A DNA stretch of 64,000 bases from Hyphomicrobiaceae bacterium (GTDB lineage Bacteria > Pseudomonadota > Alphaproteobacteria > Rhizobiales > Hyphomicrobiaceae): positions 310,001-374,000 of the forward strand of contig JALHOW010000002.1 of the NCBI GenBank assembly GCA_022842785.1, in the 5' to 3' direction. Positions within the stretch are counted from its first letter, which is position 1, and each line of letters starts with the position of its first letter. Both the position numbers and the translations under genes were made by a program. The notes beneath the pieces are model-generated. The model worked only from the letters and a program-made list of their open reading frames with translations, had not been told where the DNA came from and made no database searches. Below are positions 22,946 to 28,632 of this stretch, piece by piece.

Positions 22946-24163
22946 TCAGTACGTCTCGACGTGGTAGCGGCCCTCGCCGCGCATGGTCGGCTTGAGGCTC
23001 GCCCAGTCGAGACCATGCGCGGAGGCGATCTCGGCGAGCGCCGCGTCGACACCCGCCTCCATGCCCTTGAGCCCGCAAATGAAGATGTGTGTCGCCGGCG
23101 AGCCGATCAGCGGCCCGAGCGCCTCGGCCTCCTTCTGCATTCGGTCCTGCACGTACTCCTTCGCCGCACCGGGCAGACGCGAGAACACGAGATGCTTGCC
23201 GAGGATTTCATCGCGAACTTTCTGCAGTGGCCCGAAGTAAGGCAACTCACCCGGCGTGCGGGCGCCGAAGAAGAGGAGGGCACGTCCGGGCGCGCCTTCC
23301 ATGGCTCGCCGGCGACGCTCGGTGAAGGCGCGGAAGGGCGCCGAACCCGTACCCGTGCAAATCATGAGGAGGTTCGCATTGGCATCGTTCGGCATGAGGA
23401 ATGTCGCGCCGAATGGCCCCGTGACGAAGACTTTCTCGCCAACCTTGCGATCGCACAGCCACTCTGAGACGAGCCCGCCGGGCACGCGCTTGACCGTCAG
23501 AGAAACGTTATTGGCATTGCGTTTTTCGCCATCGCGCGCCGAAGCAACGGAGTACAGGCGGATCGGCAGTTCCTTGCCATCCGCGTTCGTGACCGGGGGT
23601 ACGATGCCGATCGACTGGCCCTCGAGCACCGGGAACTGCGTTTCGCCGAACGAGAGCACGATGTGGCGCACGTCGCTCTCGGTATCGGCGTCGGTAATTC
23701 GGAAGTTGCCCTGAATGGTCGCAACAGCCGGCTTCGATCGTGTGAAGAGATTGATCGCCGGCTTGGATGCACTCGACGGCGGCACTGCCTTTCCGCCCGC
23801 ACCGTCGTGGGCGGCCGCGATAAGCGCCGCGATCTCGGCCTCACTGGCATCGGCGAGAGACGCCGCGAGCGCGCCTTCACCGAGATCCTCCTGCGTGGGC
23901 AGCTCAGTCCATTCCATCTGCTCGTCGAGCGAATAGGCCGTGTCGGCGCGCACGATCCGCCAGTTGTCGATCGAGCCCGTCGGGCACGGCGAGATGCAGT
24001 CCATGCAGTAGTTGCACTTCTCGGCATCGACGACGTAGTTCGCGTCGTTGTGCGTTACGGCCCCGACAGGACATGTCGCCTCGCACGTGTTGCAGCGAAT
24101 GCAGATCTCGGGATCGATGACATGCTGCTTCTTGAGGCCATCTGGGAGCGCAGGCGTGGTCAT
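22946..24163 (-). CDS. boxA: Benzoyl-CoA 2,3-epoxidase, reductase component BoxA
   Basis: 405 residues. The N-terminus holds two 4Fe-4S clusters (CIRCNTCEATCP with Cys21/24/27/31 and CNYCMDCISPCP with Cys50/53/56/60), followed by PTGSIDNWRIV. A linker of about 80 residues leads to a ferredoxin-NADP reductase-like FAD/NADPH module (LPIRLYSVAS for flavin, ICTGTGSAPFRAF for NADPH) ending in MRGEGRYHVETY, typical of BoxA. BoxA passes electrons from NADPH to the oxygenase BoxB, which epoxidises benzoyl-CoA in the aerobic CoA-dependent benzoate route. Its ATG overlaps the cupin stop (ATGA). boxB and boxC are not visible in the window. Confidence 0.9.
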   Translation of the reverse strand: MTTPALPDGLKKQHVIDPEICIRCNTCEATCPVGAVTHNDANYVVDAEKCNYCMDCISPCPTGSIDNWRIVRADTAYSLDEQMEWTELPTQEDLGEGALAASLADASEAEIAALIAAAHDGAGGKAVPPSSASKPAINLFTRSKPAVATIQGNFRITDADTESDVRHIVLSFGETQFPVLEGQSIGIVPPVTNADGKELPIRLYSVASARDGEKRNANNVSLTVKRVPGGLVSEWLCDRKVGEKVFVTGPFGATFLMPNDANANLLMICTGTGSAPFRAFTERRRRAMEGAPGRALLFFGARTPGELPYFGPLQKVRDEILGKHLVFSRLPGAAKEYVQDRMQKEAEALGPLIGSPATHIFICGLKGMEAGVDAALAEIASAHGLDWASLKPTMRGEGRYHVETY

Positions 24164-24746: not shown

Positions 24747-25055
24747 ATGAATGCGACCTCGCTGGGCGAGTTGCGGAACGGCGCCGCGCCGACTGAGGCC
24801 ACAGACGACAAGTTGGAGCAGATCCGCGACTTGCTCCACGGTGAGTTCAGGCGCGATCACGACACCCGGCTGCGCGCCCTCGAGACCCGCGTGAGCGATT
24901 TGGAGGGTGATCTCCTGCGGCGACTGGAGGTGCTCCAGGCCCGGGTCGAGGCCCTCGCCAGCGAGAACGCGACCGAGCGCCGTTCGGCCTTCGACGAGCT
25001 CTCCCGGAGCATCTTCGAGCTCGGCGACCGCATCCGCCGCATCTCGCACGACTGA
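24747..25055 (+). CDS. Coiled-coil protein heading the OmpA/GTPase/kinase set
   Basis: 102 residues from the ATG at 24747, with GAAGGG eight bases upstream; an ATG at 24741 is too close to that site. The protein is almost wholly helical and charged, with heptad-like repeats from about residue 20 to 95 (LRALETRVSDLEGDLL, LEVLQARVEAL), so it should form a coiled coil. No signal peptide. It lies 70 bases before the OmpA-domain gene on the same strand and is likely part of its operon. No enzymatic motif is visible; a scaffold or adaptor role is inference. Confidence 0.72.
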   Translation: MNATSLGELRNGAAPTEATDDKLEQIRDLLHGEFRRDHDTRLRALETRVSDLEGDLLRRLEVLQARVEALASENATERRSAFDELSRSIFELGDRIRRISHD

Positions 25056-25125
25056 CACGACCTCAGACGTGGCGCGATCGTCCTTCCAAATGCGCACCAC
25101 CCGTTAACCCTGGCAGCTCCGCTTC

Positions 25126-26961
25126 ATGTCGCAGGACAGCGTTATCCGGCTGAAGGAACTGCTCTTCGATAAGGAGAGCCGTGAGCTCGATGCGCTTGCT
25201 CTGCGCCTCCGGGAGGTTGCCGAGCGCGCCGGCTCGGATGCCAGTTTCCGGAACAGCGTCGCCGCGACCCTTGAAGGCGCGCTGCGCGACGCCGAGGCGG
25301 CCAATCACCATCAGGTCGCAGATGCCCTCGCGCCCCTCGTCGTGCGCACTGTGCGTACGGAGGTCGAGGCGAGCAGCGATGCGCTGCCGGCGAAGCTCTA
25401 TCCCCATATCGGCGTGATGGTGCGCGACTATGTGCGCAGCGCCATCCGCGATCTCATGGAGGACATTAACCGGCGCCTCGAGGACGGGCTGACGAAAAAC
25501 CGCCTGTCGCTGCAGCTCAGGAGCTGGACCACCGGCCGGCCAATGGCCGAGCTGGCGCTCGCCGATACCGGGCGTTTCGAAGTCGAGGAGCTTCATCTCA
25601 TCCGGCGCGGCTCCGGAGAACTACTCGCGCACTGGAGCCGCTTGGCGCCGGGCGATGACGCGTCTGCACGACCGGAGGGACGCAAGGCGCTGTTCAGCGG
25701 CATGCTGACCGCCATGACGGCCTTCATCGAGGAAGTCTACGAAGCCGAGAAAGCAGGCCTGCGCACGATCGACTTCGGCGGCCACACCATCTATCTGCGC
25801 GGCTCACCGCTCCATCTTCTCGCTGCCAAGTCACGTGGCGAAGCCGGCGCTGGCGCACAGACCCTGCTTGATGAGGAATTCCTGCACACCCTCGAGAAGG
25901 ATGGTGCCGCACCCGACCTTGCAGCCCTCGCAGCACGCCTCGAAGCCGGGATGTCCGAGCGGCAGAGGCATCTCCGCGACGAGAAGCACCGCTCCGGAAT
26001 GCGACCGCTCCGCTTTCTGCTGTGGCTCTTGGCACTGGCGCTTGCGGCGTACGTGGCCTGGCAGAGTTATGTGACGTACCGGACGGACAGTCTGCAGACT
26101 TCGGTCGACCGTGTGATCGATGAAACACCGGCACTGAAGGGCTATCCGACGCGAGCCAAGGTCGAGCGTGGCGGCGAGCGCATCGACGTCAGCGGTCTCG
26201 CCCCGTCCGGCGATACCCGCGCCGACATACTCAAGCGCCTGCGTGAAATAGCGCCTGCTGCTGCCATCACCGAGACGATCGGCGTCGTTCCTGGCGCCGA
26301 GAGCGCTGGACTCGCTGACGAGGCTGCACGCCTGCGCGACCGGCTGGCTGGCCTCGAAGCACGCATCGGCGGCATTGCCGCAACGCTCGGCGACGTCAGC
26401 AAGTCGCTCGACGGCATGAACACCTCAGTCGGCAGCATGGCACGCTCGGCCACGGTCGCTACCGAGCTTCAGGACATCCGTAAGGAAATCTCAGGGATAA
26501 CGACTTCGCTCAGCGGTATGGCACGCGCGCCGGCCATCGAGGCGGAGCTCCAGGGCCTTCGCAAAGAGATCGCGGCACTCGCACCGAAGCCCGATCCTCG
26601 CGCCGATCTCGAGCGCTGGATTCAGGCGCACGCCGTCTTCTTCTCCGATGGCACGACCTATCAGGTGCAGGATCAGACCGACGCTGCGCTTGATGCTCTC
26701 GCTGCGCTCATGCGCCGCGCGGATATGACGATCCGCATTGTCGGTTACACCGACGAGCGCGGCACGGCCGATCGCAATCTGCCGCTAGCGCTCGCGCGCG
26801 CCGATCGTGTTGCGGCCGATCTCGCTCGTCGCGGCGTTGATCCTGCCCGTATGAAGACTGTCGGCCGTGCTGCAATTCTCGACATCAGCCAGCGCAGCGG
26901 CTCGTCGAGCCCGAACCGACGCGCGACCTTCGAGCTCGCGTTCGTTGGCGAGGGCCAATGA
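25126..26961 (+). CDS. Membrane-anchored protein with cytoplasmic N-domain and C-terminal OmpA domain
   Basis: 611 residues without a cleavable signal. Residues 1-290 are soluble and helix-rich, with a conserved-looking block near 133-170 (SWTTGRPMAEL, FEVEELHLIRRGSGELLAHW). One transmembrane helix follows (about 295-313). Residues 320-390 resemble a BON-type domain, 390-480 is coiled coil with near-repeats (LQDIRKEISGIT, LQGLRKEIAALA), and 490-611 is an OmpA-like peptidoglycan-binding domain (IVGYTDERGTADRNLPLALARAD as adjacent blocks). The topology places an inside domain against a periplasmic cell-wall sensor. The stop overlaps the GTPase start (ATGA), implying joint production. Confidence 0.85.
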   Translation: MSQDSVIRLKELLFDKESRELDALALRLREVAERAGSDASFRNSVAATLEGALRDAEAANHHQVADALAPLVVRTVRTEVEASSDALPAKLYPHIGVMVRDYVRSAIRDLMEDINRRLEDGLTKNRLSLQLRSWTTGRPMAELALADTGRFEVEELHLIRRGSGELLAHWSRLAPGDDASARPEGRKALFSGMLTAMTAFIEEVYEAEKAGLRTIDFGGHTIYLRGSPLHLLAAKSRGEAGAGAQTLLDEEFLHTLEKDGAAPDLAALAARLEAGMSERQRHLRDEKHRSGMRPLRFLLWLLALALAAYVAWQSYVTYRTDSLQTSVDRVIDETPALKGYPTRAKVERGGERIDVSGLAPSGDTRADILKRLREIAPAAAITETIGVVPGAESAGLADEAARLRDRLAGLEARIGGIAATLGDVSKSLDGMNTSVGSMARSATVATELQDIRKEISGITTSLSGMARAPAIEAELQGLRKEIAALAPKPDPRADLERWIQAHAVFFSDGTTYQVQDQTDAALDALAALMRRADMTIRIVGYTDERGTADRNLPLALARADRVAADLARRGVDPARMKTVGRAAILDISQRSGSSSPNRRATFELAFVGEGQ

Positions 26962-27470
26962 TCTCCCGCAAGCTCATGCTGCTCGGCGAGATCGGTGTCG
27001 GCAAGACATCGCTGATCCGCCGTCTCGTGGAAGGTCGCTTCGAGACGGAATACAAATCCACATTCGGCGTCGAACTCTATCGCGTGCCGATCACGCGAGC
27101 CGGTCCGAACGGCGACCAGGCCATCGAACTCGTCGTCTGGGATACTGACGGCAATTTCGGCCAGAGCATATTCCGCCACGTCTACGTCAAGGGTGCTTCG
27201 GCTGCCCTCATCATCGGCGATCTGAAACGGCGCGCGACACTCGATAGCATGGTCACGCTCGCGGAAAGTTTCCAGGAAGCGCTGCCGGGTCGGCATTTTT
27301 CGTTCATTGCCAATAAAGTCGATCTCATTGCCGATGGCGGCATCGCCGAGCTGCCGGCAAAGCTTCGGGACGCGCGCCAGCCTGTTCTGCTCACTTCCGC
27401 CAAGACGGGAGCCAATGTCGAGGACACCTTCATCCAGGCCGCCACTTCCATCCTCCGCCGTGATGGCTGA
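26958..27470 (+). CDS. Ras/Rab-like small GTPase
   Basis: 170 residues, the size of a bare Ras-fold GTPase. All five G motifs are present: G1 GEIGVGKTS (10-18), switch I Thr35 in YKSTFG, G3 WDTDGN (Asp62, Gly65), G4 NKVD (119-122) and G5 TSAKTG (146-151). The residue after the G3 Gly is Asn66 where Ras has catalytic Gln61, so intrinsic hydrolysis may be slow or activator-dependent. No lipidation motif or membrane anchor is seen. Its ATG overlaps the OmpA-protein stop, and its 3' end overlaps the kinase start by eight bases. It probably works in the cytoplasm with the N-domain of the upstream protein; this is inference. Confidence 0.92.
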   Translation: MISRKLMLLGEIGVGKTSLIRRLVEGRFETEYKSTFGVELYRVPITRAGPNGDQAIELVVWDTDGNFGQSIFRHVYVKGASAALIIGDLKRRATLDSMVTLAESFQEALPGRHFSFIANKVDLIADGGIAELPAKLRDARQPVLLTSAKTGANVEDTFIQAATSILRRDG

Positions 27471-28632
27471 GAGCGCCGCAGGGCAGGACAGCGAGACGGT
27501 GCAGCTCGCCGCATCGGGCCGCTTTCTGGCCGAGCGCCGTTCCTTCGGCATGGTCTGGATCGATGCCGATCTTGTCGTCCGCCGCCGCTTCGGCCCGCTC
27601 GTCGACTTCGTGGCTCTCGATCGCCCGATCACCGACAGCGTCATGGCGCTCGTCGGCTTCGAGGAGGAGTTCACGGCACTACGCGCGGGAACCGGCGGGC
27701 CGCTCACCATTCCCAATGTCGTCATGAACGACGCGATTGTCACCAGTGCCGAGCCGCCGTTGCGGCTCAGTCTCGACATCTACTGGGACGCGCGCGAGCA
27801 GTTCCACCTCATGCTCGTGCGCCATGTCGTGGATCACTCGTCGCTCGAAACCGAGCTGAGGACCCAGATGCGCTTGCGCGTGATGGCCGAAGCTGAACTC
27901 GTCGAGAAGAGCGAGGCCATTCAACGCGCCAATCAGGAGCTGGCGCTCGTCAATCGCGATCTCGAAGAGTTCGCCTACGTCATCTCACACGATCTCAAGG
28001 CGCCGCTGCGCGCGCTACGCTACGATAGCGGCGATGCCGATCGCGCCCTTGCAGCCGGCGATATCGCGACTGTGGGCGCCAAGCTCGCAGCCATGCGCAG
28101 TCATCAGGCGCGCATGCTGGCCATGCTCAATGGCCTTTTCGACTATGCGCGGGCCGGCCGCAAAGCCGAGGGCATCGAAATGGCCGATACGCGGCAGCTC
28201 GCCGAGAACGTCGTTGCAGGTCTAGCGGCGCCCGCCGGAATGAACATAACGATCGAGGGAAGCTGGCCTCACTTGATGACATTGGCCGCGCCGCTCGAAC
28301 TCGTCCTGCGCAATCTCGTCGGCAATGCGATCAAGCATCACGATCGGCCGGAAGGGCGCATCCTGCTTTCCGCGCGCATTGGCGACGGCACGCTCGACAT
28401 CACGGTTCAGGACGATGGCCCGGGCATTCCCGTCGACTGGCAAACCGCGGTCTTCCTCCCTTTCCGCAAGGTCGACGATACGGACAGCACAAAAGACAGC
28501 TCCGGCATGGGCCTTGCCCTCGTGCGGCGCACTCTGGACCGGATCGGCGGCAGCATCAGGCTCCAGTCCGATGCGCCGCTCGCGCGCGGCACGACTTTCC
28601 ATGTGCGCTGGCCTAACCGCATCAGCGTGTAA
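27463..28632 (+). CDS. Sensor histidine kinase coupled to the GTPase
   Basis: 389 residues from the ATG at 27463 inside the end of the GTPase gene. Residues 20-120 form a PAS-like input region (FGMVWIDADLVVRRRFG), then a helical linker (128-168), the phosphoacceptor H-box FAYVISHDLKAPLRAL with His176, and the HATPase domain with N-box LRNLVGNAIKHHD, DDGPGI and GMGLALVRR. No transmembrane segment is visible, so it is a cytoplasmic kinase. No response regulator lies nearby. Translational overlap with the GTPase gene suggests the two proteins act in one pathway. Confidence 0.92.
   Translation: MAESAAGQDSETVQLAASGRFLAERRSFGMVWIDADLVVRRRFGPLVDFVALDRPITDSVMALVGFEEEFTALRAGTGGPLTIPNVVMNDAIVTSAEPPLRLSLDIYWDAREQFHLMLVRHVVDHSSLETELRTQMRLRVMAEAELVEKSEAIQRANQELALVNRDLEEFAYVISHDLKAPLRALRYDSGDADRALAAGDIATVGAKLAAMRSHQARMLAMLNGLFDYARAGRKAEGIEMADTRQLAENVVAGLAAPAGMNITIEGSWPHLMTLAAPLELVLRNLVGNAIKHHDRPEGRILLSARIGDGTLDITVQDDGPGIPVDWQTAVFLPFRKVDDTDSTKDSSGMGLALVRRTLDRIGGSIRLQSDAPLARGTTFHVRWPNRISV

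Follow-up and report, generated by a model that had tools for sequence, protein, structure and literature searches.

The four genes at positions 24747-28632 of the window, a stretch of 64,000 nucleotides from a Hyphomicrobiaceae bacterium, probably encode a Group 1 Rup-type switch, in which a peptidoglycan-anchored Roadblock-type regulator sets the state of a small GTPase, by which a PAS kinase and a receiver protein are driven. As a neighbourhood, the gene set is already known: Wuichet and Sogaard-Andersen (2014, PMC4316618) published it under the name 'Group 1 Rup', with no function given in the available sections of that paper, and the original prediction was right to suspect that a functional description was lacking. 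No other paper on this gene set was found in a literature search, and neither were the three additions made here, namely a predicted Roadblock/longin domain, a predicted PAS fold and a relocated receiver gene. The features are as follows:

24747-25055, plus strand: first gene, a cytoplasmic coiled-coil protein of 102 aa
25126-26961, plus strand: OmpA protein, 611 aa (Pfam OmpA)
25573-25911, plus strand: inner domain of the OmpA protein, residues about 150-262, with a predicted Roadblock/longin fold (AF2, Foldseek, VIA-align, profile comparisons)
26005-26061, plus strand: transmembrane helix, OmpA protein residues about 294-312 (hydropathy and charge)
26656-26907, plus strand: OmpA peptidoglycan-binding-type domain, residues 511-594 (Pfam OmpA, E 3e-12)
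26958-27470, plus strand: Rup-type Ras-like GTPase, 170 aa (Pfam Ras), its start overlapping the OmpA stop
27463-28632, plus strand: soluble histidine kinase, 389 aa (HATPase_c), overlapping the GTPase gene by 8 bases
27541-27828, plus strand: N-terminal kinase domain, residues about 27-122, with a predicted PAS fold (model, VIA-align, profiles)

The genes lie head to tail on the plus strand, and both overlaps described in the original prediction, ATGA at 26958-26961 and the 8 bases at 27463-27470, are present. That they form one operon is well supported by conservation across loci and co-occurrence. The sequences themselves show this operon and how it is conserved, as well as the order of domains and the co-occurrence of the receiver gene. 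Among 60 genomes, the window's own counted, the GTPase is present in 26. The OmpA N-domain occurs in 25 of these 26 and in none of the other 34, so the two are linked by more than chance. Neither has a second copy in the window's genome. A homolog of the coiled-coil protein was found in 28 of the 32 loci of a first set, made up of the window, 11 loci and 20 regions; copies (L031, L034, L039 and L042) and a partial locus (L041) were left out, and two GTPase-bearing genomes (G020 and G050) lie outside this set. A wider set of 43 comprised 40 regions, from 38 of 53 matching genomes outside the family, and three plasmids. In 41 of these a coiled-coil profile match, which may also catch unrelated coiled coils, lies just upstream of the OmpA-type gene. 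Assignment of the first gene to Apolipoprotein or other Pfam families was rejected, all matches being under their cut-offs. The original prediction pointed to OmpA proteins with a similar N-domain next to Rab-like GTPases in other phyla, and rightly so: the same four-gene order was found on a Nostoc plasmid.

The OmpA protein consists of inner helices, the Roadblock/longin-type domain, one transmembrane helix, a weak BON-like part and the OmpA domain. Hydropathy shows a single hydrophobic segment (peak 294-312) with six Lys/Arg in the 20 residues before it and two after, which predicts that the N-terminus is inside. The membrane helix and the OmpA domain of the layout first proposed thus hold, while the BON-like part is less well borne out (ArfA/OmpATb N-terminal model, 15.7 bits against a cut-off of 81). 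From this architecture, with one membrane helix and an OmpA domain, it is plausible, as was suggested, that the protein links envelope and cytoplasm and could pass the state of the wall inward.

Roadblock/longin is the fold of MglB, Ragulator, TRAPP and Mon1-Ccz1, all regulators of Ras-like GTPases. We predict, with moderate confidence, that the inner domain of the OmpA protein has this fold. The AF2 model places a strand-strand-helix-strand-strand-strand-helix topology at residues 152-259, which is the Roadblock/longin order of elements. The model was built on 13 sequences and has a mean pLDDT of 61 and a pTM of 0.41; pLDDT is 70-79 in blocks 151-170 and 221-260, and 49-60 in block 171-220, the central helix of the domain. 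Among the best 50 matches each of Foldseek and VIA-align, the titles that name the molecule are Roadblock, longin, TRAPP, Mon1-Ccz1, coat and Rag proteins; axoneme entries and some complexes are presumably of the same kind. Z scores ranged from 8.7 to 11.5 among the VIA-align matches listed, including MglB 6hjm_E (Z 9.9, rmsd 2.6 over 100 residues).

Profiles point in the same direction. A search of PDB sequences with the inner-domain profile, at E up to 10, gave three matches, one Roadblock protein and two TRAPP BET5 (E 0.13-1.2). The profile-profile score to 30 Robl_LC7 members was 23.5, whereas 200 column shuffles reached no more than 18.0 and eight other profiles no more than 16.3. Sequence likeness to Robl_LC7 is weak in each single comparison (best E 0.086-0.13; profile-profile probability 13.5%), and Pfam Robl_LC7 gives no match to the inner domain. 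A Roadblock profile ranked OmpA-type proteins 1-3 of 5657 ORFs; this enrichment is an indication and not a probability, since the ORF set holds redundant loci, counts related proteins repeatedly and contains OmpA-type proteins longer than the average ORF. This fold did not figure in the original prediction, nor did the PAS fold of the kinase or a candidate receiver partner, and the sections of PMC4316618 available assign the domain no function.

An arginine finger was considered and set aside: the position at which 37 of 41 N-domain rows have arginine is Gln130 in the window itself, so that residue is not proposed as catalytic. Residue 161 is Arg in 34 of the 41 rows, the window included (Arg161), and Lys in six. 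No separate MglB-type gene was found in the window's genome by a PF03259 search. Ordinary Robl_LC7 proteins occur alongside the OmpA N-domain in 22 genomes of the phylum, always on a different contig, so a separate regulator is possible there. No conservon GTPases, which might have led to Roadblock genes, turned up in a wide plasmid search.

The GTPase (Pfam Ras, E 4e-23) has, as the original prediction stated and alignment confirmed, all five G motifs (G1 GEIGVGKT, G2 Thr35, G3 WDTDGN, G4 NKVD and G5 TSAK), with Asn in place of the catalytic Gln61 of Ras. Of 72 aligned GTPases, 70 have a residue at this position and none has Gln. An alignment of 25 members shows no variation at the P-loop Lys, Thr35, the G3 Asp (Asp62) and Gly, NKxD or the SA of G5. 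The best 60 of 592 PDB sequence matches are mostly Rab proteins, with Rab14 first and none named MglA. As Asp62 is kept, whereas MglA has Thr in place of a conserved G3 Asp, the protein was not filed as MglA. It contains no cysteine, which speaks against a lipid anchor.

The kinase matches HATPase_c (E 5e-22), the HisKA match (E 0.006) being under the cut-off. Its phospho-acceptor His176, in ISHDL, is kept in at least 90% of 29 rows. The kinase has no hydrophobic segment by hydropathy and is soluble, as proposed. Modelling predicts a PAS fold for its N-terminal domain, followed by a linker helix that carries Gln135 (pLDDT 89.9; best VIA-align match 1odv_A, Z 10.1, rmsd 2.5 over 90 residues). 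Neither a Pfam call nor a PDB sequence search supports PAS at the sequence level. N-domains related to it by profile head kinases, hybrid kinases and class III cyclases at the same gene position elsewhere. The group that includes the window reaches the cyclase groups only via a second kinase group; direct comparison gives 46.5% and 0.4% for the cyclase groups and 1.1% for the hybrid kinases. Profile comparison detected no common N-domain in the GGDEF-EAL outputs. The kinase N-domain alignment left out L043, L050, L056 and L063, with L045 shortened and L105 cut at residue 165; a kinase match at L063, being on the opposite strand, was not counted as a kinase of that locus. The output-domain alignment left out L114 and L130.

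The output enzyme differs by lineage (kinase, hybrid kinase, cyclase or GGDEF-EAL), with the coiled-coil protein, the OmpA-type protein and the GTPase constant; the window has the kinase version. A tree of the sets, in which Mesorhizobium, Rhizobium and Nostoc plasmid sets were also placed (L104, L110, L136, L137 and L138 left out), carries output labels of which the cyclase and GGDEF-EAL ones were confirmed by a check. In four loci of the kinase branch the GTPase gene is not followed directly by an output gene, and at L110 OmpA-type proteins are present but no GTPase was found.

In many relatives a receiver gene follows the kinase gene, and 23 of the 26 GTPase-bearing genomes have it, compared with 2 of the 34 others. 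The window's genus retains this gene, relocated away from the kinase. The statement that no response regulator lies nearby holds for the ORFs at 20-33 kb, viewed by eye; elsewhere in the same genome, at 415802-416284 of contig C4, there is an orthologue of the receiver of the relatives. This stand-alone protein is a candidate partner of the kinase, judging by its genomic distribution.

Binding among the proteins, a GAP or GEF effect on GTP, the direction of the signal and the receiver as kinase target are inferred. The OmpA protein would grip the wall by its periplasmic end and present the Roadblock/longin-type domain to the cytoplasm, where it would bind the Rab-like GTPase and alter the state of its nucleotide, whether as a GAP, a GEF or a loading platform, the coiled-coil protein possibly being a scaffold for this step. 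The GTPase, devoid of the catalytic Gln, would then control the activity of the soluble kinase by docking on its PAS domain, and the kinase would phosphorylate the receiver. Against a regulatory role of the domain, Roadblock folds also serve as scaffolds. A wider version, somewhat less likely than not, would make the set a wall-anchored bacterial counterpart of Ragulator: in a single transmembrane protein the peptidoglycan end would read the wall and the Roadblock/longin domain would load or unload the GTPase, and a common PAS docking domain would let the GTPase drive enzymes that can replace one another (histidine kinase, cAMP-type cyclase, c-di-GMP enzyme), analogous to Ras acting on adenylyl cyclase.

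The signal might run the other way, with the PAS kinase or cyclase sensing a cytoplasmic cue and the GTPase and OmpA protein acting as the output, a nucleotide-dependent landmark on the wall. PAS domains, the fold predicted here, are common sensors, and an OmpA domain of the peptidoglycan-binding type suits a spatial anchor; such a landmark would fix where on the cell wall a complex sits, by analogy with MglA marking the pole, and MglA/MglB polarity is a bacterial parallel in the part of the literature available. However, the enzyme is the part that varies between lineages and the other three are constant, a pattern that one would expect of outputs, and the receiver gene behind the kinase gene in many relatives also speaks against the reversal, which we consider unlikely. 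The set could also be a static envelope scaffold of co-expressed structural parts with a slow or inactive GTPase and no switching. Structural roles are possible for OmpA and coiled-coil parts, and Gln is absent at position 61 in all members examined; the invariant nucleotide-binding motifs of the GTPases, and the interchange of second-messenger and kinase enzymes, argue instead for signalling and make this reading very improbable.

The missing Gln bears on another proposal, in which the output protein is the GAP, a Gln of its linker helix providing the catalytic residue in trans, and the Roadblock-type domain merely anchors the GTPase. That the output protein supplies a Gln in trans is a speculation published in PMC4316618, and an invariant Gln near the N-terminus of the output protein counts among the features of Group 1. 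None of the 70 GTPases has a Gln of its own at this position, and in 55 of 56 output proteins with letters there a Gln (Gln135 in the window) lies within one alignment column, the alignment being shifted between groups. The model, however, puts this Gln outside the PAS domain, on the linker helix that follows it. Furthermore, it is split over neighbouring columns (34 and 26 of 58 rows), the helix is rich in Gln in several groups, and L051 lacks the Gln despite typical GTPase motifs. We regard this proposal as improbable.

Rup GTPases closely resemble eukaryotic Rab and Ras, as the available sections of PMC4316618 and the PDB matches show, and no function or regulator for them was found in the literature. 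The predicted Roadblock-type domain in a constant partner names a candidate regulator and would connect GTPase control in bacteria and eukaryotes at the level of fold. The same fold controls Ras-like switches in animals and gliding bacteria, and its prediction here suggests how the state of the wall could travel inward. A wall-anchored switch would give a concrete route from the cell wall to a kinase or second messenger, with the relocated receiver gene as a measurable end point.

The set resembles Group 1 Rup, as described in the sections of PMC4316618 available, in a GTPase that keeps the G3 Asp and lacks the G3 Gln, within the single-domain range of 150-240 aa, and in its coiled-coil, domain-TM-OmpA and kinase or GGDEF-EAL output neighbours. 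No Rup gene is coupled to MglB there, and none is here, the predicted Roadblock fold aside. It differs in that the domain of the OmpA protein, unknown there, is predicted to be Roadblock/longin, the output N-domain is predicted to be PAS, and cyclases are added to the outputs. The MglA/MglB polarity switch of Myxococcus likewise links a small GTPase to a Roadblock-fold partner and two-component proteins, but the GTPase here is Rab-like with a G3 Asp, and the Roadblock-type domain, unseen by Pfam, is fused to a wall anchor. Streptomyces conservons (CvnA-D) combine a histidine kinase, a GTPase and a Roadblock-type partner in one operon; identity with them was rejected on the absence of a PF03259 match in the genome and the retained G3 Asp. 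In contrast to conservons, the set has no separate Roadblock gene, its kinase is soluble with a PAS domain, it has an OmpA wall anchor, and in relatives a receiver protein accompanies the kinase. We know of no kinship of whole complexes between this set and Ragulator (LAMTOR) with the Rag GTPases. The likeness is one of fold only, a membrane-anchored Roadblock fold presenting a Ras-like GTPase; here the fold would belong to one bacterial polypeptide that spans the membrane and has an end of the peptidoglycan-binding type.

The operon comprises four genes of one strand, all real and closely packed as in the original prediction:

24747-25055, + strand, coiled-coil protein gene, the first of the four
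25126-26961, + strand, OmpA protein gene (Pfam OmpA over cut-off)
26958-27470, + strand, Ras-like GTPase gene (Pfam Ras-type over cut-off)
27463-28632, + strand, histidine kinase gene (Pfam HATPase_c-type over cut-off)

The overlaps noticed earlier were confirmed, the stop codon of the OmpA gene and the start codon of the GTPase gene having ATGA in common and the GTPase and kinase genes sharing 8 bases. The single membrane helix corresponds to one hydrophobic segment near residues 294-312 of the OmpA protein. Hydropathy and charge counts place the heavier positive charge N-terminally of this segment, and residues 1-290 should therefore be cytoplasmic. The GTPase, as predicted, has all of G1-G5 with Asn at the place of Ras Gln61; it contains no cysteine, and its closest PDB sequence, among the matches listed, is Rab14. 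Elsewhere in the window, the - strand gene 22946-24163 encodes a 405 aa protein and adjoins short-chain-dehydrogenase-like and biotin-carboxylase-like genes. We take this protein to carry two cysteine clusters of ferredoxin type together with a flavoreductase-like region, resembling an aromatic-CoA oxygenase component.

The GTPase is present in 26 of 60 genomes (own included), and the expected co-occurrence was found: the OmpA N-domain, the cytoplasmic part before the helix, occurs in 25 of these 26 and in 0 of the 34 others. In G020, the sole exception, only 632 bases separate the GTPase from the start of its 3.6 kb contig. Among the 32 loci of a first set (the window and 31 others), 31 have the OmpA protein (L030 begins within the operon) and 28 the coiled-coil protein; a kinase follows the GTPase in 31, an opposite-strand match in L063 not being counted. 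The 4-base OmpA/GTPase overlap was seen again in 22/31. An N-domain profile matched 9/385 genomes of the class and 49/398 of the phylum (own included in both). A wider set of 43 loci was composed of 40 regions, taken from 38 of the 53 genomes that matched outside the family, and three plasmids, from Mesorhizobium, Nostoc and Rhizobium. The order coiled-coil match, OmpA-type protein, GTPase on one strand is kept in 38/43. The exceptions are L136 and L137, which end at contig ends, L132, with no scored coiled-coil match, L139, whose OmpA-type frame is in two pieces close to a contig end, and L110, with two OmpA-type proteins and no GTPase found in the stretch. Conservation beyond close relatives, one of the points on which the original prediction depended, is borne out by the Nostoc plasmid, which carries the order into Cyanobacteriota. 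L110 (8127-13393) has a coiled-coil gene between its two N-domain proteins and a flavoprotein-like gene after them; L105, of the same genus, has a tandem OmpA-type pair with GTPase and kinase. A Legionella adelaidensis plasmid record (NZ_LR134418.1, 340207-340644) holds a distant match (31% identity) annotated as Rab family GTPase; the N-domain search did not match this record.

Residues 1-309 of the OmpA protein were modelled with AlphaFold2 from 13 sequences (mean pLDDT 61, pTM 0.41; by block, pLDDT 70-79 in 151-170 and 221-260, 49-60 in 171-220). The model has helices to 146, strands 152-160 and 166-171, helix 185-205, strands 212-217, 220-226 and 230-237, and helix 244-259, which we take to be the Roadblock/LC7 order. 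The best 50 Foldseek rows against the PDB include Ragulator p14/MP1, Roadblock homodimers, Mon1-Ccz1, TRAPP, coatomer zeta, MglB (3t12_C, E 5e-4), Rag GTPases, presumably matching through their C-terminal domains, and axoneme entries (chain unnamed) that we take for dynein Roadblock light chains. In VIA, the best 50 rows of 990 chains aligned have Z 8.7 to 11.5; models that have no clear kin typically reach a best Z of 7-8, and a common fold proves no function. By entry title or general background, we take these 50 rows to have a Roadblock/longin-type superfold in common, among them MglB 6hjm_E (Z 9.9 and rmsd 2.6 over 100 residues) as well as the Asgard Roadblock 9jue_E (Z 9.9 and rmsd 2.5 over 97 residues).

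Sequence comparison gives the Roadblock assignment weak backing. With E up to 10 allowed, a profile of 41 inner domains of OmpA-type proteins reached three sequences of the PDB, one Roadblock (E 0.13) and two TRAPP BET5 (E 0.16, 1.2). Against 30 Robl_LC7 domains of the phylum, profile-profile comparison aligned 76 columns, in the register expected, with a score of 23.5 (E 0.002, probability 13.5%); controls gave at most 18.0 in 200 column-shuffled versions, 11.5 reversed and at most 16.3 in eight other profiles. A Roadblock profile placed OmpA-type proteins at ranks 1, 2 and 3 among 5657 ORFs (E 0.086, 0.15, 1.5), with 11 in the top 50 vs 0.7 expected, and in the reverse search Roadblocks made up 14 of the top 50 other matches vs 0.3 expected, redundancy and length bias being still contained in both counts. 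At residue 130, Arg in 37/41 rows of the N-domain alignment, the window alone has Gln. Pfam Robl_LC7 has no match in the window's genome nor in 57 others of the class, so no Roadblock candidate other than the OmpA protein was found in this genome. Ordinary Roadblock proteins coexist with the N-domain in other genomes of the phylum: Robl_LC7 is matched in 49/299, of which 22 carry the N-domain too, with both on different contigs in 22/22 by coordinates.

The kinase N-domain, modelled from 29 sequences, is predicted with high confidence (pLDDT 89.9) to have a PAS-like fold followed by helix 125-185. Most of the rows listed by Foldseek and VIA belong to photoactive yellow protein, PAS or LOV structures, the top one in VIA being 1odv_A (Z 10.1, rmsd 2.5 over 90); sequence search alone detected mainly the kinase helix. 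Behind the GTPase of the 43 wider loci stand 23 class III cyclases (8 confirmed by Pfam, the rest called by BLAST likeness to L112, L117 or L126), three GGDEF-EAL proteins, three hybrid kinases with receiver and five kinases, including L107, counted by its N-domain as its gene ends at a contig end. One locus (L109) has the shared N-domain without a Pfam domain, and eight have none or an undetermined gene. The Mesorhizobium plasmid record is annotated, in a row, as OmpA family protein, Rab family GTPase and adenylate/guanylate cyclase. In profile comparison, the N-domains of the window's kinase group match a second kinase group at 98.5%, this second group matches the first cyclase group at 94.6%, and cyclase and hybrid groups match mutually at 97.4-98.8%; directly, the window's group reaches the cyclase groups at 46.5% and 0.4% and the hybrids at 1.1%. 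GGDEF-EAL N-termini showed no link to other output groups by this comparison (10% at most). A quick-method tree built from the GTPase and the OmpA N-domain together (69 rows, several long branches) sets the kinase branch, which holds the window, apart from one of cyclases, GGDEF-EAL proteins and hybrid kinases. In L113, L115, L116 and L124 no output gene stands directly behind the coiled-coil, OmpA-type and GTPase genes; L113 has a kinase nearby on the opposite strand whose N-domain matches the kinase profile. In the cyclase-type loci L131 (778-2763) and L141 (3433-5400), the gene immediately upstream of that for the coiled-coil protein encodes, by Pfam, a hybrid kinase with PAS and receiver domains, possibly an extra partner; L143 has a gene of the same length (655 aa) at that place.

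Of the 32 first-set loci, at least 17 have a stand-alone receiver gene after the kinase on the same strand, ORF clustering having missed some; the spacing ranges between an apparent overlap of 119 bases and a 275-base gap. The kinase had been described as having no response regulator nearby; an orthologue does exist in the genome, but on another contig (G000:C4:415802-416284, Pfam Response_reg, 67% identity to the L051 protein). At E up to 1e-20, the receiver occurs in 23/26 genomes with the GTPase vs 2/34 without (Fisher p 3e-11 over 60 genomes, uncorrected for kinship), and coordinates place it on the same strand as the GTPase and no more than about 2 kb away in 18/23. The four bearers that belong to the window's genus (G000, G001, G002, G004) all have it on a different contig, and the G015 operon is cut off by the end of its contig. 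GTPase bearers without receiver are G041, G050 and G052, all outside the family; the converse holds for G022 (73% complete) and G011 (weaker match, E 8e-27).

The mechanism we propose combines the observed operon, conservation and co-occurrence with predicted Roadblock-type and PAS folds, and we infer its every arrow, from wall through OmpA protein, GTPase and kinase to receiver. Wall state or anchoring would change the OmpA protein, whose Roadblock-type domain would alter nucleotide loading of the GTPase; the latter would dock on the kinase PAS domain and set the kinase, and the receiver would pass the signal onward. We take the enzyme as output because the input trio is constant while the enzyme varies. 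The direction may also be the opposite, GTPase and wall anchor forming a spatial output. Alternatively, a Gln of the output protein may complete the GTPase active site, an idea published in PMC4316618; a Gln lies within one alignment column in 55/56 output proteins, but our model places it in the helix that follows the PAS domain.

A literature search, with most subscription papers outside its reach, found no later study of the gene set of Group 1 Rup GTPases. According to Wuichet and Sogaard-Andersen (PMC4316618), these lack the G3 Gln and have as neighbours a coiled-coil gene and a gene for a conserved domain of unknown function, after which a membrane helix and an OmpA domain often come. 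The same text gives the output gene as typically GGDEF-EAL or histidine kinase, its protein having an invariant Gln in the N-terminal region, and 'cyclase' appears in the main text once only, within 'diguanylate cyclase'. It further states that no Rup member was characterised at that time, and that coupling to MglB was found for none. The window operon fits the description in this text and so belongs to a kind that is known but functionally blank; the predicted regulator domain and the candidate partner protein make it testable.
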